Of a DNA stretch of 40,921 nt, positions 2,446-11,447 are shown piece by piece. The translations under genes were made by a program, and so were the position numbers. This DNA comes from Gammaproteobacteria bacterium (GTDB lineage Bacteria; Pseudomonadota; Gammaproteobacteria; UBA9214): the NCBI GenBank assembly GCA_020344335.1, contig CP070821.1:582440-623360 (forward strand), given 5' to 3'. The notes beneath the pieces are model-generated. The model was not told the DNA's origin and did not search any database. It saw nothing but the letters and a program-made list of their open reading frames with translations. Position 1 is the first letter of the stretch; each line of letters begins with the position of its first letter.

Positions 2446-4677
2446 ATGGATACCCTGATCAAACCGCTTGCCGAGCCTGTGGCGCAGAATGAGCCTGGCG
2501 TCACAGCACTGAAACCGGAGAGCCATCTCCCGGCCATCGATCTTGACGACCCGGAGCTGTACCTGAATCGGGAACTGACCTGGCTGGAGTTCAACCGCCG
2601 TGTCCTGCACCTGGCGACAGACGAGAACACCCCGCTGCTGGAGCGCGTCAAGTTTCTTGCCATTGTCAGCAGCAACTTCGATGAATTCTTCATGAAACGC
2701 ATTGGCGGCCTCAAGCAGCAAATCGCCGCCGGCATTCGCACATCCACTGTCGATGGCCGAACGCCCTTTGATCAACTCCGGGAAAGCCAGGCCATCGCCC
2801 GCGAAACCCATCTGGAGCAGGACCGGATCTACCTGCAACTGCTGAAGCAGCTCGATGCGAACGGGATTCGCCTGATGGCGTATGCGGATCTCGGACCGGA
2901 CGAGAAAGAGGTCATGCGGGAAACCTTCATCGCCAATATCTTCCCGCTACTGACGCCGCTGGCGATGGACCCCGGACACCCGTTCCCGTTCATATCGAAT
3001 CTTGCCCTCAACCTGCTGGTTTCCCTGCGCTATCCCGGCGGTGGCGGAAGTCACTTTGCACGCGTCAAGGTACCGATGGTGAAGGATATCGTGCAACGCT
3101 TCCTGCGTGTCGGCGACAGCAATTTCTATGTCCGGCTCGAAGATGTTGTCACCAACAACCTTGACCTGCTGTTTCCGGGCATGGAGATCATTTCCTGTGA
3201 ACTGTTTCGGGTCACGCGCAATGCCATCGTGGAAATCGAGGAAGAGGAAGCGGACGACCTGCTTTCGATGATCGAAACCGAACTGCGCGACCGGCATTTT
3301 GCCCCGATTGTGCGCCTGCAGATCGAAACCGGCATGAATCCTACCCACCGCGGCATGCTGGCAGCCGAACTCGGTTTGGACGAAGAAACCGATGTATTCG
3401 AAGTGGAAAGCATGATGGCGATGCGCGATCTTTTCGAAATCGCCGGTTTGGACATACCCGAGTTACATGATCCACCGCACAAGCCGGTCGATCATACCCG
3501 CCTGGCACACGACTCCCGGAATATCTTTCATATAATCCGCGAGCGCCGTGCCCTGTTGCTGCAGCACCCCTACGAGTCCTTCAGTACCAGCGTGGAACGC
3601 TTCCTGCGAACAGCCAGCGAGGACCCCAAGGTGCTTGCCATCAAGATGACCCTGTACCGCACATCGGAAGAAAGCGCCATCGTGGACTCACTGGTGAACG
3701 CGGCACGTAACGGCAAGCAGGTTGCCGTCCTGGTCGAACTGAAGGCACGTTTTGACGAAGCCGCCAATATTCGCTGGGCGCGGCGCATGGAACAGGCCGG
3801 AATTCATGTCACCTATGGCGTGGTCGGGTTGAAGACACACAGCAAGGTTATACTCGTAATACGCAAGGACTATAATGGCTTGCGCCGCTATGCACATATC
3901 GGAACCGGCAATTACCATTCCGGCACGGCCCGCCTGTACTGTGATCTCGGTATGCTGACCAATGATGATGACATCGCCCAGGATCTGTCAGAGCTGTTCA
4001 ACTACCTGACCGGTTACTCTCCCCCGCCGCGCTACCGCAAGATTCTGACGTCACCGTTTACCCTGAAGCAGGCACTGCTGGACAAGATTGAACGGGAAAT
4101 AAAACAGCATTCAGCGGCAACACCGGGCCTTATCCAGTTCAAGATGAATGCCCTGGAAGACACCGATATCACCCGTGCGCTGTACCGTGCCTGCCAGGCC
4201 GGCATCAAGGTCGACCTCATTGTACGCGATACCTGCCGCCTGCGGCCCGGGCTCCCCGGTCTCAGTGAGTCCACCCGGGTGATCAGCGTCATCGGACGTT
4301 TCCTGGAACATGCACGCATCTATTATTTCCGCAACCAGGGGGAGGAGGAGTATTTTATCGGCTCCGCCGACCTGATGAAACGCAACCTGGAAAGCCGCGT
4401 AGAGGTTGTCACACCCGTCGAAGACTCACGCCTGAGGCAGGAGTTGCGACTGATCCTCGATGTCCAGCTATCCAGTAAACGCAATGTCTGGGAAATGCAG
4501 TCCGATGGCAGCTATACGGAACTCCGGGATGAAAACGGCAAGCGGCCGCTGGATTCACAGGAAACCTTTATCGAGCTCGCCCAGAAACGCAAGTCGGCCG
4601 CCACCAGGCACCAGCAGGCCAGACTGCGCAAGAAACTGCTGCATCACTTTCACAAGCGCCTGCAAAAGAGCACCTGA
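2446..4677 (+). CDS. ppk1: Polyphosphate kinase 1
   Basis: PPK1 reversibly moves the terminal phosphate of ATP onto inorganic polyphosphate at the inner face of the membrane. The 743-residue length is somewhat above the E. coli enzyme. The domains run in order: the N-terminal helical domain (LNRELTWLEFNRRVL, then SSNFDEFFMKRIGG), the head domain, and two phospholipase-D-like catalytic domains. The autophosphorylated histidine pair is intact: His465 in KTHSKV and His484 in YAHIGTGNY. Their 19-residue spacing equals that of His435 and His454 in E. coli PPK1. The C-terminal domain has DLIVRDTCRLRPG and SADLMKRNLESRVE. The gene is alone on the plus strand here, with no ppx exopolyphosphatase following it. 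A TATACT at 2380-2385 could be a -10 box, but I see no good -35. The ribosome binding site is weak. Confidence 0.97.
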   Translation: MDTLIKPLAEPVAQNEPGVTALKPESHLPAIDLDDPELYLNRELTWLEFNRRVLHLATDENTPLLERVKFLAIVSSNFDEFFMKRIGGLKQQIAAGIRTSTVDGRTPFDQLRESQAIARETHLEQDRIYLQLLKQLDANGIRLMAYADLGPDEKEVMRETFIANIFPLLTPLAMDPGHPFPFISNLALNLLVSLRYPGGGGSHFARVKVPMVKDIVQRFLRVGDSNFYVRLEDVVTNNLDLLFPGMEIISCELFRVTRNAIVEIEEEEADDLLSMIETELRDRHFAPIVRLQIETGMNPTHRGMLAAELGLDEETDVFEVESMMAMRDLFEIAGLDIPELHDPPHKPVDHTRLAHDSRNIFHIIRERRALLLQHPYESFSTSVERFLRTASEDPKVLAIKMTLYRTSEESAIVDSLVNAARNGKQVAVLVELKARFDEAANIRWARRMEQAGIHVTYGVVGLKTHSKVILVIRKDYNGLRRYAHIGTGNYHSGTARLYCDLGMLTNDDDIAQDLSELFNYLTGYSPPPRYRKILTSPFTLKQALLDKIEREIKQHSAATPGLIQFKMNALEDTDITRALYRACQAGIKVDLIVRDTCRLRPGLPGLSESTRVISVIGRFLEHARIYYFRNQGEEEYFIGSADLMKRNLESRVEVVTPVEDSRLRQELRLILDVQLSSKRNVWEMQSDGSYTELRDENGKRPLDSQETFIELAQKRKSAATRHQQARLRKKLLHHFHKRLQKST

Positions 4678-5149: not shown

Positions 5150-6415
5150 TTACAGAAAAATTCCTTTCAGGGTAAAGAAAATCAGGGCGGCAAGTGCACC
5201 ACCAACTGGCAGGGTGACAAGCCAGGACAGGATAATCTTGCCAATAACCCGAAGATCAATGGCGCCGATACCCCGCGCAAGGCCGACACCGATCACCGCA
5301 CCCACTGCAATATGCGTTGTCGACACCGGCAGGCCGGTGCGTGAGGCAAGCACGACCGTGGCGGCGGCAGCCAGCTCGGCACAGTAACCGCGGCTGGGTG
5401 TCAGCTGGGTGATGTGTTTACCAATCGTCTTCATGACCCGGTAACCCATGGTCGCCAGGCCGATTACGATCCCGGCACCGCCCAGGGCCAGGATCCACAG
5501 CGGTAATTCGGATTTCTGGGCAACCTCTCCACCAGACTGCACGATACTGTAAACCGCCGCGAGTGGCCCGATGCCATTGGCGACATCATTTGAGCCATGC
5601 GCGAATGCCATGGAACAGGCGGTAAACAGCATCATGGGGACAAACACCTTTTCCACACTGGCAAAATGAAAATCGCGGTCCGCCTCGGGATCGATTGTCA
5701 CGCGCCTGACCAGAAACCATCCCATAACAGCGGTGAACAGGCCAAAAAGCACCGCAAATACAAAGCTCATACCGATCGACAGCTCGACATCCAGGTGCTT
5801 CAATCCCTTGAACAGGGTGACGAGAGAGATGATGAACCCAACCAGGAAAATATAGGCAGGTGCCCATCGCTTGGCGTTTCGAAACGGATTTTCTGTGTTC
5901 AGGATCAGCCGGTGAATACTCATCATGAGCAGGAAGGAAAGGGTCCCGCCGAGTACCGGTGACACCACCCAGCTGGCCGCAATCATTGTCACCTTGCCCC
6001 ATTCGACGGCATCGACACCGATTCCGACCAGGGCAAACCCGATCACGGCACCGATGATTGAATGGGTCGTCGAGACCGGCCAGCCCCGGGCCGTGGCAAT
6101 CATCAACCAGATACCCGCTGCCAGCAGGGCAGACAGCATGCCCAGGACCAGGATATCCGGGTTACTCACAACCGATGATGGATCAATGATGCCCTTGCGA
6201 ATGGTCTTTGTGACATTACCACCCGCGATAAATGCACCGGAAAATTCAAAAATTGCGGCAATTATGAGCGCCTGCTTGACAGTGATGGCGCCGGAACCGA
6301 CGGATGTCCCCATGGCATTGGCCACGTCATTGGCGCCAATACCCCAGGTCATGTAAAAGCCGAAGATTACTGCCAGCGCAATAAAGACATGTCCGTAGGA
6401 AGAGATGATTTCCAA
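5150..6415 (-). CDS. pit: PiT-family inorganic phosphate transporter
   Basis: This is a low-affinity phosphate permease of the inner membrane, driven by cation symport. The 421 residues form about ten to twelve hydrophobic segments. The two inverted family signatures are present: GANDVANAMGTSVGSGA at residues 27-43 and AHGSNDVANGIGP near residue 270. Each repeat also has a VSTTH motif (PVSTTHSIIGA and PVSTTHIAVGA). The best start is a TTG at 6413-6415, because AGGAG lies seven bases before it and no ATG follows within the first segment. It lies 39 bases behind the DUF47 gene, so the two are almost certainly co-transcribed, as in many bacteria where the PhoU-like partner tunes the transporter. 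Metal-phosphate is the usual substrate of Pit. Confidence 0.93.
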   Translation of the reverse strand: MEIISSYGHVFIALAVIFGFYMTWGIGANDVANAMGTSVGSGAITVKQALIIAAIFEFSGAFIAGGNVTKTIRKGIIDPSSVVSNPDILVLGMLSALLAAGIWLMIATARGWPVSTTHSIIGAVIGFALVGIGVDAVEWGKVTMIAASWVVSPVLGGTLSFLLMMSIHRLILNTENPFRNAKRWAPAYIFLVGFIISLVTLFKGLKHLDVELSIGMSFVFAVLFGLFTAVMGWFLVRRVTIDPEADRDFHFASVEKVFVPMMLFTACSMAFAHGSNDVANGIGPLAAVYSIVQSGGEVAQKSELPLWILALGGAGIVIGLATMGYRVMKTIGKHITQLTPSRGYCAELAAAATVVLASRTGLPVSTTHIAVGAVIGVGLARGIGAIDLRVIGKIILSWLVTLPVGGALAALIFFTLKGIFL

Positions 6416-6454: not shown

Positions 6455-7135
6455 CTAGCGGGCAATAAGGAGTCGCAGCCGGTCTCCTACTTTCTCGGCG
6501 TAATCTGCAAGATCGCCAACCCACTCGATGAGCTGGTACCACATCATCACTGATACCGGTTTGATCTCGTCCTCATGCTCGAATAATTGGCGCGAAAGCT
6601 GCAAGCCAAGCTCATCTGTCTCGTCTTCAATCAGGTTGAGCTTCTTGACCATGTCCTCGACGCGAGTCGCTTCACGCCCGCGAAACCCCATCTCCAGCAA
6701 CTCGTCAAGTTCCTCGATTATTCTTGCCGACTCGTCACATACATCGACACAGCGCCGTGCCAGCGCCAGCATTGGCTCCTGCATGAATTCGGGAAATCCC
6801 ATCGGCCGTTCTACCAGCAACCCGGCTATATCCTGGGCAGTATCGGCAATTGAATCCTGCATCTGCAGTACTTCCAGAAGATCGCGCCGGTCGACCGGCA
6901 TGAACAGACTTTTAGGCAAGTGACCGCGCAAATCATTTTTTATTTTGTCGGCTTCGGCCTCGAACTCGAAAATCCTGTCCTTGATGGATTTCACCCGTTC
7001 GTCATCGCCTGCAGCGAGCGCTTCGAACAGGGAGGGGACTTCGTGTACGCATTCCTGAACGGTACGCATATGACGCTGCAAGGCGGTAAAAGGCGACTTG
7101 CTGAACAGGTTTGCAAACGGGTTGGTCGTAGGCAT
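6455..7135 (-). CDS. DUF47 family PhoU-like protein, partner of Pit
   Basis: The 226-residue all-helical protein belongs to the DUF47 (TIGR00153) family, which has the PhoU fold. N-terminal MPTTNPFANLFSKSPF is followed by FEFEAEADKIKNDLRGHLPK and DRRDLLEVLQMQDSIADTAQ, whose acidic residues bind metal clusters in PhoU proteins. The C-terminal helices contain EDETDELGLQLSRQLFE and WVGDLADYAEKVGDRLR. DUF47 proteins accompany Pit transporters and are thought to gate or regulate them. The 39-base gap to pit supports that. No membrane segment or signal peptide is present, so it is cytoplasmic. The region upstream, 7136-7283, shows no clear Pho box. Confidence 0.9.
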   Translation of the reverse strand: MPTTNPFANLFSKSPFTALQRHMRTVQECVHEVPSLFEALAAGDDERVKSIKDRIFEFEAEADKIKNDLRGHLPKSLFMPVDRRDLLEVLQMQDSIADTAQDIAGLLVERPMGFPEFMQEPMLALARRCVDVCDESARIIEELDELLEMGFRGREATRVEDMVKKLNLIEDETDELGLQLSRQLFEHEDEIKPVSVMMWYQLIEWVGDLADYAEKVGDRLRLLIAR

Positions 7136-7283: not shown

Positions 7284-8852
7284 TTAATGTTTTTTTGAGC
7301 CGTTGATTGCGGATTCGAGCTGCTCGCACAGGGTACGAACGACCTTGATCCGGGCATAACACTTGTCATTGCCTTCCACAATTGTCCAGGGCGCATTGTG
7401 GGTGCTGTTATGCTCGATGATATCGTTGACCGCCACCGCGTACGCATTCCATTTTTCACGGTTCCGCCAGTCTTCACCGGTCAGCTTCCAGCGCTTGTAC
7501 GGTGTCTTTTCACGTGCCTTGAAACGCTCGAGTTGCTCATCCCTGGTAATGTGTATCCAGTATTTCACCAACACAATGCCATGCTCCGTCAACTGCTCTT
7601 CGAACTCATTGATTTCGGCATAAGCCCGCCGCCATTCATCCTCGGCCGCAAATCCCTCTATACGCTCCACCAGCACACGACCGTACCAGCTGCGGTCGAA
7701 AATAGTGATACGACCGGCCCGGGAGAGATGCCGCCAGAAGCGCCAAAGGTAATGCTGCGCCCGTTCCTCGTCAGTCGGCGCAGCGATCGGGATCACCTCG
7801 TAGTAGCGTGCGTCCAACGCGGCGGTAATACGGCGAATTGCGCCCCCCTTGCCGGCGGCATCCGGACCCTCGAACAAAAGGATGGTCGACAACTTCTGCT
7901 TCAGTGCCTCGCGATGCAGATGGTTCAGCCGTGCCTGGCATTCCTTCAGCTGTGCCCGGTAGTCCCTTTTGGGCAGTTGCAACGTCATATCCAGCCCGGA
8001 CAGGACCGTAAGCGGGGTTGATTGACCGCCCTTATCGCTTGCATGGCCGTTTACCGATGCACTTTCCGCTGCATGCTCCGCCTGCCGGGTGGCATGCTGT
8101 TGTAACGCCATCTCCTCCCTCAGCTTTCGCCTTGCCGCGAACTCATCGAAATGTTTGCGGATGGCGTCACGGATGGTTGTTCCGATGGTCAGGCTCCGAT
8201 AGGCAGGATCAGCAGCTTCCACAATATTCCATGGTGCCCGGCCGGTGCTGGTGCGCTGGATCATTCTTTCTGCCGCCGCCTCAACCTCCTCGTACCTGTT
8301 CCAGTGGTCCCAGTCCTGCTGGGTGACGCGCCAGCTCGTCAGCGGATCCTTTTCCAGTTTCTTGAAGTGTTTCTTTTGTACAGCCTTGCTTAAATGCAGC
8401 CAGAATTTGATGATCAACGTGCCATCATCGGCCAGCGCTTCCTCGAATGCATGGCAACGGGCCAGCCGCTCATCGAAAACTGCCGCGCTGTCCTTTCCAT
8501 GGATCCTGCCATGGAGAGGACTGGCATACCAGGCATACAGGAACAGGCCGATGCGGCCTTTCGGCGGCAGGTCACGCCAGAAACGCCAGTACTCGGGCCG
8601 TCCCCGCTCTTCATCGGAAGGCTTGTCATAGGCACGAGTTGCCAACAAGCGCGGGTCCATCCACCCATTGAGCAGGTTGACGGTCTCACCTTTGCCTGCT
8701 CCGTCGACACCGGCACACAGCAAGATAACCGGAAACTCCCTGTCCTCGAAAAGTTTTGCCTGGACCTCCAGCAGCTCCTGCCTTAGTAACGGTTCGCGTT
8801 GCCGGTATTCGCTCTTCGGAATTGTCCGGCCAAGCTCTGCCGTACTGAACAT
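7284..8852 (-). CDS. pap: Polyphosphate:AMP phosphotransferase (double-domain PPK2)
   Basis: PAP uses polyphosphate to phosphorylate AMP to ADP. The 522-residue protein has two fused PPK2 domains. The first carries the Walker A variant GVDGAGKGE near residues 48-56. The second carries EGPDAAGKGGAIRR near residue 330, followed by the lid FDRSWYGRVLVERIEGF. The second domain has the complete catalytic set. The first has a shortened lid (YAWYASPLHGRIHG), as expected in class II PPK2. An Ala/Ser/Gly-rich linker separates the domains. I place the start at the ATG 8850-8852, behind AGGGGAGAGAGG. The open frame runs 48 bases further upstream to another ATG, but the residues there do not look like the family. 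The gene is divergent from the 2-phosphoglycerate kinase-like gene and complements ppk1 by spending the polymer. Confidence 0.93.
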   Translation of the reverse strand: MFSTAELGRTIPKSEYRQREPLLRQELLEVQAKLFEDREFPVILLCAGVDGAGKGETVNLLNGWMDPRLLATRAYDKPSDEERGRPEYWRFWRDLPPKGRIGLFLYAWYASPLHGRIHGKDSAAVFDERLARCHAFEEALADDGTLIIKFWLHLSKAVQKKHFKKLEKDPLTSWRVTQQDWDHWNRYEEVEAAAERMIQRTSTGRAPWNIVEAADPAYRSLTIGTTIRDAIRKHFDEFAARRKLREEMALQQHATRQAEHAAESASVNGHASDKGGQSTPLTVLSGLDMTLQLPKRDYRAQLKECQARLNHLHREALKQKLSTILLFEGPDAAGKGGAIRRITAALDARYYEVIPIAAPTDEERAQHYLWRFWRHLSRAGRITIFDRSWYGRVLVERIEGFAAEDEWRRAYAEINEFEEQLTEHGIVLVKYWIHITRDEQLERFKAREKTPYKRWKLTGEDWRNREKWNAYAVAVNDIIEHNSTHNAPWTIVEGNDKCYARIKVVRTLCEQLESAINGSKKH

Positions 8853-8908
8853 CCTCTCTCCCCTTGTGACTATGCATTCGACGCTTCCGCAGCATTGCAT
8901 CTCTGAAG

Positions 8909-8982: not shown

Positions 8983-10179
8983 ATGGCAAAGATTCTGGTA
9001 ATAGACCGGGACGACCACACCAGTATTCCGTTTCTGCGCGGAATCCTGATCCGGTCGTTGCAGGATTCAGGTATATCCTTTGAAGATGCCTATAAAATAG
9101 CAACGGCTGTCCGCACCCGTCTCGATGCGGCCGGAACGACCGAGCTGACGACGCTTGAATTACGCAAACTGGTAATTGACGAGCTTGCGGCTTCAAAAGA
9201 GCCGGAGATAGTCAACCGTTACCGGCAAAAGAAGTCACCCTTTGTCATCCAGGTAGAACAGCGGGACGGGCAACTGATACCGTTCTCGCGACTGGACTAC
9301 CAGCATCAGCTGGAAAATATCGGCCTTTATGGTGATGAAGCTGCTGTCATCGTGGGTATTGTCTACAAGCACCTGCTGGATCGCCACATCGAACTGATTA
9401 CTTCCAGACGACTCGGGGAACTGACCTATCGGTATCTGAGACAATCCCCCGAACTGGGGCCGGCCGTCGCTAACCGCTGGCTTGTCTGGCGCGATTTTCT
9501 CAACACCGGCAGACCATTAATCTTCCTGATCGGCGGGACCGCCGGCAGTGGAAAGAGCACCATTGCGTCCATGCTGGCAAGTCGCCTGGAAATCGTCCGC
9601 ACACAGTCCACAGATATGCTGCGCGAGGTCATGCGCACCATGATCCCCGAACAACTGCTACCGGTTCTGCACAAGTCCTCATTCACGGCCTGGACCGTCC
9701 TCCCCGAGCAGTCCAATTACCAGGACAAGACATCGGAGTCATCCCTGATCGAGGGGTACCTCACCCAGGCCAACTTGCTGTCGGTTGCCATTGAAGCGGT
9801 GATCCAGCGCGCATTGCGCGAGCGGGTGTCATTGATCCTCGAAGGTGTCCATATTTACCCGCAACTGGTCAGCAAGCTGAGAACCGACAGCGAGGCCATT
9901 GTCATCCCGATCATGGTCAGCGTCCTGAAGCGCAAGCGCCTGCAACGGCAAATCCGTGGACGTGGTACCGCGGTTGCACAGCGTCGCGCGGAACGGTATC
10001 TCGAGCATTTCGAGGACATCTGGCGCCTGCAGTCCTACCTGTTGTCACAGGCGGACAACACCAATATCACCATCGTCGTCAATGAAGACCGTGACAAGGT
10101 GTTCCGGGATATCATGCGCATTACCATTGATGTTCTGGCCAGGGATTTTACCGGTACAGCCAAGTCGGTATTCGTCTGA
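8983..10179 (+). CDS. 2-phosphoglycerate kinase-like protein with N-terminal ATP-cone-like domain
   Basis: The 398-residue protein resembles the archaeal 2-phosphoglycerate kinase, which makes 2,3-bisphosphoglycerate from 2-phosphoglycerate and ATP. The N-terminal 90 residues look like the ATP-cone region of that family (PFLRGILIRSLQDSG, then AYKIATAVRTRL). A second helical part follows (LITSRRLGELTYRYL). The P-loop kinase domain starts at residue 180 with GGTAGSGKST (184-193) and STDMLREVMR (209-218). It continues with ILEGVHIYPQL and an Arg-rich lid KRKRLQRQIRGRG. The stop overlaps the start of the next gene by one base (TGATG), so the two are translationally coupled. Plant LPA1 and other relatives of this family are linked to inositol phosphate metabolism, so the true substrate is not certain. 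The neighbouring phosphoglycerate mutase favours 2-phosphoglycerate. Confidence 0.8.
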   Translation: MAKILVIDRDDHTSIPFLRGILIRSLQDSGISFEDAYKIATAVRTRLDAAGTTELTTLELRKLVIDELAASKEPEIVNRYRQKKSPFVIQVEQRDGQLIPFSRLDYQHQLENIGLYGDEAAVIVGIVYKHLLDRHIELITSRRLGELTYRYLRQSPELGPAVANRWLVWRDFLNTGRPLIFLIGGTAGSGKSTIASMLASRLEIVRTQSTDMLREVMRTMIPEQLLPVLHKSSFTAWTVLPEQSNYQDKTSESSLIEGYLTQANLLSVAIEAVIQRALRERVSLILEGVHIYPQLVSKLRTDSEAIVIPIMVSVLKRKRLQRQIRGRGTAVAQRRAERYLEHFEDIWRLQSYLLSQADNTNITIVVNEDRDKVFRDIMRITIDVLARDFTGTAKSVFV

Positions 10180-11447
10180 TGAAACACAAGGGCATGATGA
10201 TCATTCTCGACGGACTGGGTGACCGGCCCGTTGCCGCTTTGGGTGGTGCCACCCCGCTGGAAGCGGCGCATACGCCCCATATGGATGCCATGGTTGCTGC
10301 CGGGCGTTGCGGGCTGGTGGATACACTGTATCCTGGAATGCCGGTCGACACCCACACCGGTGCCGGGGTCCTGCTTGGCCTGAAACCCGGTGATGCGTTC
10401 CACCTGCCCCGGGGGCCGGTAGAGGCAGCAGGCACCGGCCTACCGATCATGCCCGGAGAAATTGCACTGCGTTGCAATTTTGCCACCCTCGAGGCCGATG
10501 GGAACAGCCTTCGTATCCTTGACCGGCGCGCCGGCCGTATCAGCGAAGGCACCCATGAACTGGCGGATGCACTGCAGGACATACCGCTGGGAGAGGGATT
10601 CACTGCCAGCATCCGGCCGGCGACCGGCCACCGCGCCGTGATGCGCCTGTCCGGTCCGGGACCGCTGCCGGAAATCAGTGATACCGATCCTGGTTCCAGT
10701 GCCGAGCCCTGTCCGGTCAGCATCAGTCACTCCCTGGATGCGCTCAATCCCCTCGGAGAAGAAGCCGCGAACGCCCTCAACCGCCTGGTCCGTGAAGCCC
10801 ACGCACGCCTTGACAATCATCCGGTCAACCAGAAACGCCGGCAGCAGGGAAAACCGCCGGCGAATGGCATCCTCACGCGCGGCGCCGGCACCATCGGCAG
10901 TATTCACAATATACTTCACCATCTCGGGCTGCATGCCGCTGTCGTTGCCGGGGAACGAACGCTTGTGGGTCTGGCCAACCTGTTCAATTTCACGGCCATC
11001 AGCCAGCCCGGATTCACGTCCATGCCGGACACCGATCTCGCCGGGAAAATCGCAGCAGCACTGGCGGCCCTCGAAGAACACGATATCGTGTTCCTGCACA
11101 TCAAGGCCCCGGACATTCATGCCCATGACAGGAATCCTGTAGCCAAGAAGGAAGGCCTGGAGTTGATCGACAATGCACTGTTGCCGCTGTTACGAGAAGA
11201 AATCGTGATCGGCATCACTGCCGATCACACGACCGACAGCAATACCGGCCGCCACTGCGGTGACCCGGTGCCCTCGCTCATCTGTTCCGCTGCCGGGCGC
11301 AAGGACAAATGCAATGAATTCGGGGAAACCCCGTGTCTCGCCGGCGCCCTCGGGAGAATACGGGGGCATGCCTTTCTGCTCTCGGTTCTGGATGAAATGC
11401 AGTGTCTGCAGAATTACCAGACCGCAGACAGCCCCTATTACATCTAG
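10179..11447 (+). CDS. apgM: Archaeal-type 2,3-bisphosphoglycerate-independent phosphoglycerate mutase-like protein
   Basis: This 422-residue protein belongs to the alkaline phosphatase superfamily. It matches archaeal-type iPGM, which interconverts 3- and 2-phosphoglycerate. It starts with the metal site IILDGLGDRP (Asp11) and TPLEAAHTPHMD. The C-terminal metal ligands are in HIKAPDIHAHD (residues 307-317) and ADHTTDSNTGRHCGDPVP (Asp349, His350). RGPVEAAG is also typical. The usual nucleophile region, GSDxxHL in archaeal enzymes as I recall them, reads VDTHTGAG here (residues 56-63), so the nucleophile may be Thr. Translation is coupled to the upstream 2-phosphoglycerate kinase-like gene. 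Its end faces purA with only 11 bases between the two stop codons. The activity could be mutase, or a phosphatase on a related phosphoglycerate. Confidence 0.85.
   Translation: MKHKGMMIILDGLGDRPVAALGGATPLEAAHTPHMDAMVAAGRCGLVDTLYPGMPVDTHTGAGVLLGLKPGDAFHLPRGPVEAAGTGLPIMPGEIALRCNFATLEADGNSLRILDRRAGRISEGTHELADALQDIPLGEGFTASIRPATGHRAVMRLSGPGPLPEISDTDPGSSAEPCPVSISHSLDALNPLGEEAANALNRLVREAHARLDNHPVNQKRRQQGKPPANGILTRGAGTIGSIHNILHHLGLHAAVVAGERTLVGLANLFNFTAISQPGFTSMPDTDLAGKIAAALAALEEHDIVFLHIKAPDIHAHDRNPVAKKEGLELIDNALLPLLREEIVIGITADHTTDSNTGRHCGDPVPSLICSAAGRKDKCNEFGETPCLAGALGRIRGHAFLLSVLDEMQCLQNYQTADSPYYI

Follow-up and report, generated by a model that had tools for sequence, protein, structure and literature searches.

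A bacterial 2-phosphoglycerate kinase-family gene paired with an archaeal-type phosphoglycerate mutase relative among phosphate and polyphosphate genes

Results

Gene organization of the locus

We analyzed a 40,921-nucleotide stretch of a gammaproteobacterial genome, hereafter the window, in which a gene for a kinase of the 2-phosphoglycerate kinase (2PGK) family is followed by a gene for a relative of the archaeal-type cofactor-independent phosphoglycerate mutase, ApgM (Table 1). The two reading frames and their overlap lie where an earlier note on this DNA had placed them, and Pfam and NCBIfam matches agree with its description of the kinase as divergent from pap and lying within a polyphosphate and phosphate-transport island, which comprises ppk1, pit-DUF47 and pap. 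The note had also described the pair as translationally coupled. The one-base overlap exists in the window, but it is not constant across pairs: junctions in the conserved pairs compared range from -8 to +63 bases, plus one 461-base gap, and adjacency is what persists. Because the overlap is present in only some pairs, we rejected translational coupling as the key feature. No E. coli-type Pho box was found above shuffled sequences upstream of the kinases, nor was one found upstream of the pstS controls. Alignment of the pap-kinase intergenic region revealed short conserved stretches and no recognizable operator.

Table 1. Features of the phosphate island and of the kinase-apgM pair (positions in the window)
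Feature	Position	Strand	Description and evidence
ppk1, polyphosphate kinase 1	2446..4677	+	TIGR03705, 769 bits
Pit-type phosphate transporter	5150..6415	-	PF01384
DUF47/PhoU-like protein	6455..7135	-	PF01865
pap, polyphosphate:AMP phosphotransferase	7284..8900	-	two PPK2 domains; TIGR03708, 684 bits; divergent from kinase
2PGK-family kinase	8983..10179	+	398 aa; two ATP-cone-like modules, then adenylate-kinase-type P-loop domain; ORF, Pfam, NCBIfam, AlphaFold, Foldseek
ATP-cone module 1	8998..9222	+	aa 6-80 (aa 5-82 in model); Pfam PF03477, 43.5 bits; strand/helix pattern in model
ATP-cone-like module 2, motif VEQRDGQLIPFSR	9244..9492	+	about aa 88-170 (aa 90-175 in model); PRK04220 alignment; repeated strand/helix pattern
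P-loop GGTAGSGKST	9532..9561	+	aa 184-193; G184, G185, G190, K191, S192 invariant in 34 kinases
Motif QSTDMLREVMR	9604..9636	+	aa 208-218; Q208, S209, T210, D211, R214 invariant in 34 kinases
TGATG, kinase stop/apgM start	10177..10181	+	one base in common; sequence
ApgM-family metalloenzyme	10179..11447	+	422 aa; ORF, TIGR00306, phmmer, structure model
Thr58-His59-x-Gly61 nucleophile motif	10350..10361	+	9/9 kinase-linked ApgMs, 0/7 other sequences in alignment
DRRAGR	10521..10538	+	aa 115-120; probable phosphoglycerate-binding motif, common to archaeal PGM
Asp349-His350 metal ligands	11223..11228	+	with Asp11, Asp312, His316, His359; invariant or nearly so in 15 ApgM relatives

Domains and motifs of the kinase

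Among NCBIfam models, those for 2PGK match the kinase best (PRK04220, 267.3 bits; PRK12337, 254.6 bits), consistent with the family named in the earlier note, although both scores fall below the equivalog cut-offs (343 and 603, respectively). A model for mevalonate-3-phosphate 5-kinase also matches, at 80 bits, far under the 2PGK models. The protein has the 2PGK-type architecture, an N-terminal ATP-cone joined to a P-loop kinase domain. The ATP-cone-like N-terminus proposed earlier is indeed present, but the structure model contains two modules instead of one: in the AlphaFold model (mean pLDDT 81), the P-loop domain is preceded by two consecutive modules that repeat one order of strands and helices. 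Positions 12-291 of PRK04220 align with residues 96-384, whereas the PRK12337 alignment spans nearly the whole protein. Since the archaeal-type 2PGK model covers only module 2 and the kinase domain, module 1 represents an extra cone-like module. Foldseek found adenylate and nucleoside-monophosphate kinases as matches for the kinase domain and, for part of the chain, the dATP-bound, ATP-cone-bearing ribonucleotide reductase of P. aeruginosa (5im3), which has its ATP-cones in tandem. A sequence search with the kinase matched no solved 2PGK structure. The P-loop, which the earlier note had read correctly, and the QSTDxxR, SSF and EGVH positions show little or no variation among 34 aligned kinases; the kinase is thus expected to be catalytically active.

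A specialized ApgM subfamily linked to the kinase

The second protein scores 342.2 bits against TIGR00306 (apgM), over the cut-off of 320, which supports its earlier assignment to the archaeal-type mutase family. Against the narrower equivalog PRK04024 it reaches 341.2 bits, and two other kinase-linked ApgMs reach 360 and 365 bits, all below the cut-off of 489. The Pyrococcus PGM 2zkt is matched both by phmmer (3.5e-76) and by the structure model (pLDDT 91.5; TM 0.83/0.91), with phosphopentomutases, iPGMs and alkaline phosphatases as more remote fold matches. The two-metal site of the alkaline-phosphatase superfamily is present (D11, D312, H316, D349, H350, H359), and the protein keeps DRRAGR and HRAV, which are common to archaeal PGMs and missing in homoserine-kinase-like paralogues. 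An ApgM from the same genus (L026:6633-7895) has Gly at the equivalent of Asp312 (HIKAPGIHAHD), reflecting either a draft-assembly error or active-site decay.

Where archaeal PGM has Ser-Asp-x-x-His, the window ApgM has Thr-His-x-Gly, and hence no Ser nucleophile. In a tree with few outgroups, the nine kinase-linked ApgMs form one clade (support 96/97). This single clade, together with the Thr-His-x-Gly motif, indicates at the sequence level that the kinase-linked ApgM is a specialized subfamily. Phosphopentomutase, a related mutase, uses a Thr nucleophile, and an ApgM with Thr-Asp encoded on a Macrococcus plasmid scores over the PRK04024 cut-off; mutase activity is therefore not excluded by a Thr nucleophile alone. 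A further ApgM with a Thr-Asp nucleophile, with no kinase nearby, occurs in G074 (L112:4156-8409), where the upstream genes on the same strand encode a CDP-alcohol phosphatidyltransferase, an inositol-monophosphatase-family protein and an iron-alcohol-dehydrogenase-type protein.

Conservation of the pair and linkage to phosphate genes

A lack of conservation of the two genes as neighbors had been set beforehand as the refuting outcome, but the pair proved to be adjacent in nine genomes (G000, G001, G002 and G003 within the window's order; G693, G722, G626, G751 and G745 in five other families). These nine represent six families of the class, all but one of which lie outside the order. Most of the genomes compared are draft assemblies. 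The window's order comprises 23 genomes of one family, 16 of which carry the kinase. Kinases of one group, with 63-82% identity to that of the window, are divergent from pap in every case in which the contig extends that far, and apgM follows the kinase in three genomes of the window's genus and in G003, a member of another genus. At least seven genomes of the window's family have the kinase next to pap with no ApgM beyond weak matches, so the kinase does not depend on the mutase. Class-wide, the 2PGK family was detected in 20 of 369 genomes, and this search brought the adjacency in the five other families to light. A profile search of a 398-genome phylum sample detected the kinase in its own genome alone, and a strict protein look-up across genome contigs returned one relative; viral contigs yielded none, and plasmids only distant Deinococcota ones.

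Outside the order, gene arrangements are diverse. The pair closes a pst cluster in L145 (pstS-phoU-pstC-pstA-pstB-pstB-kinase-apgM), follows ppx-pap on one strand in L146 (ppx-pap-kinase-apgM), and precedes ppk1-CNNM-phoB-phoR in L148 and a PPK2 gene in L153; in L147, where kinase and apgM overlap by 4 bases, no phosphate gene is within reach. Kinases without an adjoining ApgM occur with pit-DUF47 and ppx (L143), pap and pit (L154), pst-phoU (L149) or phoU-pst-ppk1 (L150), and in an unrelated MAG (L001) a 40%-identical kinase overlaps the end of a pstB-pstB-pstA-pstC-phoU-pstS cluster. These varied arrangements, tandem as well as divergent and involving pst, pap, ppk1, pit and ppx, argue for repeated association rather than one frozen neighborhood.

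The linkage with phosphate and polyphosphate genes that the earlier note had proposed to check is strong. A phosphate context, defined as ppk1, pap/PPK2, pit, DUF47, ppx, a Na/Pi symporter, PhoU or PstS/C/A within 9 kb, surrounds the kinase at 9 of 10 same-clade loci outside the order (L155, on a 4-kb contig, was excluded) compared with none of 20 evenly spaced 19.5-kb control windows; the Fisher p-value of 7e-7 is indicative, since the controls come from two genomes, some reference proteins were drawn from the clusters themselves, and the loci share ancestry.

Kinase paralogues and recurrent neighbors

A second kinase group, 34-40% identical, occupies a ppk1-CNNM-CNNM-CYTH neighborhood or lies beside pst (L034, L037-L039, L041, L042, L151). 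In L039:3013-10164, as in L034, L038, L041 and L042, the kinase is found with ppk1 and two consecutive CNNM/CorC genes, and a CYTH-domain gene (triphosphatase-type family) directly follows it in L039, with a one-base overlap, and in several others. Members of a third group adjoin a CHASE-domain histidine kinase, whose gene lies directly 3' and often overlaps (L043:3139-6367, L144:878-3989, L152:8537-11850 and L044); a response-regulator-like gene comes next in L144 and L152, and no phosphate gene is nearby at these third-group loci. With these two paralogue groups, the kinase family has diversified, mostly around phosphate, and it may do more than one job, given that one group sits beside a CHASE histidine kinase.

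Additionally, open reading frames of about 820-1000 aa with a fused C-terminal 2PGK-like domain occur in five genomes of the class (L156-L160), three of which belong to a single family; elsewhere in the one such protein scanned, there are weak AAA matches only. A SixA-type histidine phosphatase is a repeated neighbor of the kinase or ApgM (L030:3977-4954, L112:9181-9696, L153:542-1108, L149:2124-2729), and the L030 copy is a fusion with a NUDIX domain that stands in place of apgM. A methyltransferase-like gene with a weak Pfam score (L039:7591-8445, L076:1708-2553, L035:2891-3712) lies ahead of the second kinase paralogue, and in G003 it also comes after apgM.

Glycolytic mutases, inositol-phosphate synthase and cDPG synthetase

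An ordinary iPGM (TIGR01307) scores over the cut-off in 23/23 genomes of the order, reaching 722 bits in the window's own genome, G000. ApgM is therefore not the required glycolytic mutase, and its candidacy as an essential or sole one was rejected. No dPGM in G000 passes the cut-off, so 2,3-bisphosphoglycerate is not needed there as a dPGM cofactor. Inositol-3-phosphate synthase (PF01658) was found in 0 of the 23 genomes and in six control genomes; we accordingly rejected a de novo inositol-phosphate supply in the order, where such metabolism appears unlikely from gene content. The annotated neighbors of the pair include no cDPG synthetase.

Discussion

We describe a kinase and a mutase relative that recur as neighbors among phosphate and polyphosphate genes. 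The analysis shows their families, folds and motifs, their adjacency and genomic context, and the occurrence of a separate glycolytic iPGM. Our favored reading, held tentatively and at somewhat less than an even chance, is that they form a conserved module handling phosphoglycerates within phosphate and polyphosphate metabolism, in which the kinase makes 2,3-bisphosphoglycerate under ATP control. In the mechanism that we infer, from the substrates of both enzymes to ATP control, flux direction and physiological role, the kinase would most likely convert 2-phosphoglycerate and ATP to 2,3-bisphosphoglycerate, and adenine-nucleotide levels would switch it through the cone-like modules. ApgM would most likely act on the same phosphoglycerate pool through a phosphorylated threonine: it could form 2-phosphoglycerate from 3-phosphoglycerate, or it could dephosphorylate 2,3-bisphosphoglycerate. 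Judged by family membership, 2,3-bisphosphoglycerate is a plausible product for a kinase that scores under its equivalog cut-offs and is accompanied by an ApgM with an altered nucleophile motif. The kinase reaction would form the core of the module and ApgM an accessory, because at least seven relatives have no detectable ApgM and iPGM can supply 2-phosphoglycerate. Alongside polyphosphate, the product may act as a small, soluble store of phosphate or as a signal of phosphate status; the phosphate setting suggests such a store or metabolite, for which cyclic 2,3-diphosphoglycerate (cDPG) (PMC10690619) and plant LPA1 (PMC4844318) are precedents.

Other explanations deserve consideration. The kinase could act on some other small phosphorylated metabolite, with ApgM as the matching phosphatase or mutase and the role still phosphate-linked, which we regard as rather unlikely. 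Several substrates are known or proposed in the kinase family, including mevalonate 3-phosphate in Thermoplasma, and the mevalonate-3-phosphate 5-kinase model does match; LPA1 is possibly an inositol-phosphate kinase (PMC7020182; PMC4844318), and the altered ApgM nucleophile would also fit an unfamiliar substrate. However, the 2PGK models score far higher, the order has no inositol-phosphate synthase by a search that was positive in six control genomes, and ApgM still has DRRAGR and HRAV, as phosphoglycerate mutases do. It is more improbable that the pair tunes the 3-PG/2-PG step, with ApgM as a second mutase under particular phosphate conditions and the kinase draining or regulating 2-phosphoglycerate. 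The TIGR00306 score, the archaeal PGM fold and the Thr nucleophile of phosphopentomutase, itself among the fold matches, are in keeping with this explanation, but every genome of the order has an ordinary iPGM, every kinase-linked ApgM departs from the archaeal mutases in its nucleophile, and those tested score 341-365 bits where PRK04024 demands 489. The simpler form, that the pair merely runs or, as raised in the earlier note, regulates this glycolytic step, is weakened by that iPGM and by the relatives that have no detectable ApgM.

The kinase might also function chiefly in regulation, sensing ATP and controlling genes or enzymes of phosphate or polyphosphate metabolism, with ApgM a loosely attached passenger. 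The ATP-cone-like modules, the frequent lack of ApgM, and the paralogues beside a histidine kinase or beside ppk1 with CNNM and CYTH genes would be understandable on these terms, yet none of 34 kinases varies in the catalytic P-loop or in the substrate-side motifs, and ApgM adjacency with its private motif recurs in six families, making this explanation very improbable.

Returning to the phosphoglycerate module, a bolder formulation is that it represents a widespread, unrecognized bacterial pathway in which ATP-cone-controlled 2,3-bisphosphoglycerate is formed, recycled by a Thr-nucleophile ApgM, and used as a phosphate store or signal alongside polyphosphate and Pst/Pit uptake; in this full form we consider it doubtful. 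Accounts of phosphate storage in bacteria usually deal with polyphosphate only; to this, a conserved module linked to pst, pit, ppk1, pap and ppx would bring a reserve or signal based on phosphoglycerate. Through the ATP-cone-like modules, adenylate charge may be tied directly to phosphate status. Furthermore, the bacterial module would offer a tractable model for the 2PGK family, of which plant LPA1, a protein of disputed substrate, is a member. Both families are already known, and bacterial copies of both were noted in Deinococcus-Thermus (PMC1274311); our literature search found no report of the conserved pairing, the Thr-His-x-Gly subfamily, or the phosphate/polyphosphate linkage.

Compared with archaeal cofactor-independent PGM (2zkt, 3idd, 3kd8; TIGR00306), the window ApgM has the fold, metal ligands, DRRAGR and HRAV in common, but differs at the nucleophile motif and resides in a host that already has iPGM. 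A 2010 survey found archaeal-type iPGM in 0/184 gammaproteobacterial genomes (PMC2964296), the group to which the hfq-hflXKC-purA gene order of the window points. Archaeal 2PGK, which converts 2-phosphoglycerate to 2,3-diphosphoglycerate (PMC10690619, PMC12136491), belongs to the same family as the window kinase and likewise has an N-terminal cone-type domain (Methanothermus fervidus; PRK04220, COG2074). In contrast, the window kinase has two cone-like modules, falls under the equivalog cut-off, and is a bacterial protein whose gene context is phosphate and polyphosphate metabolism instead of a cDPG pathway. The methanogen cDPG pathway, whose product has been proposed as a phosphate and energy store (PMC10690619), has the 2PGK step in common with the proposed module, but no cyclase lies beside the window pair. 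In Deinococcus and Thermus, the same two families (COG2074 and COG3635) are among the archaeal-type genes common to both genera, and the passage of that source available to us gives no adjacency or phosphate context (PMC1274311); the PRK12337 model spans nearly the full length of the window kinase, which reaches 255 of the 603 bits set for it. In plants, LPA1 affects seed phytate, and its overexpression raises seed total phosphorus (PMC4844318). It has been argued to be an inositol-phosphate kinase (PMC7020182; PMC4844318), whereas the window's order has no inositol-phosphate synthase; nevertheless, LPA1 resembles the window kinase in being a 2PGK homologue tied to phosphorus storage.
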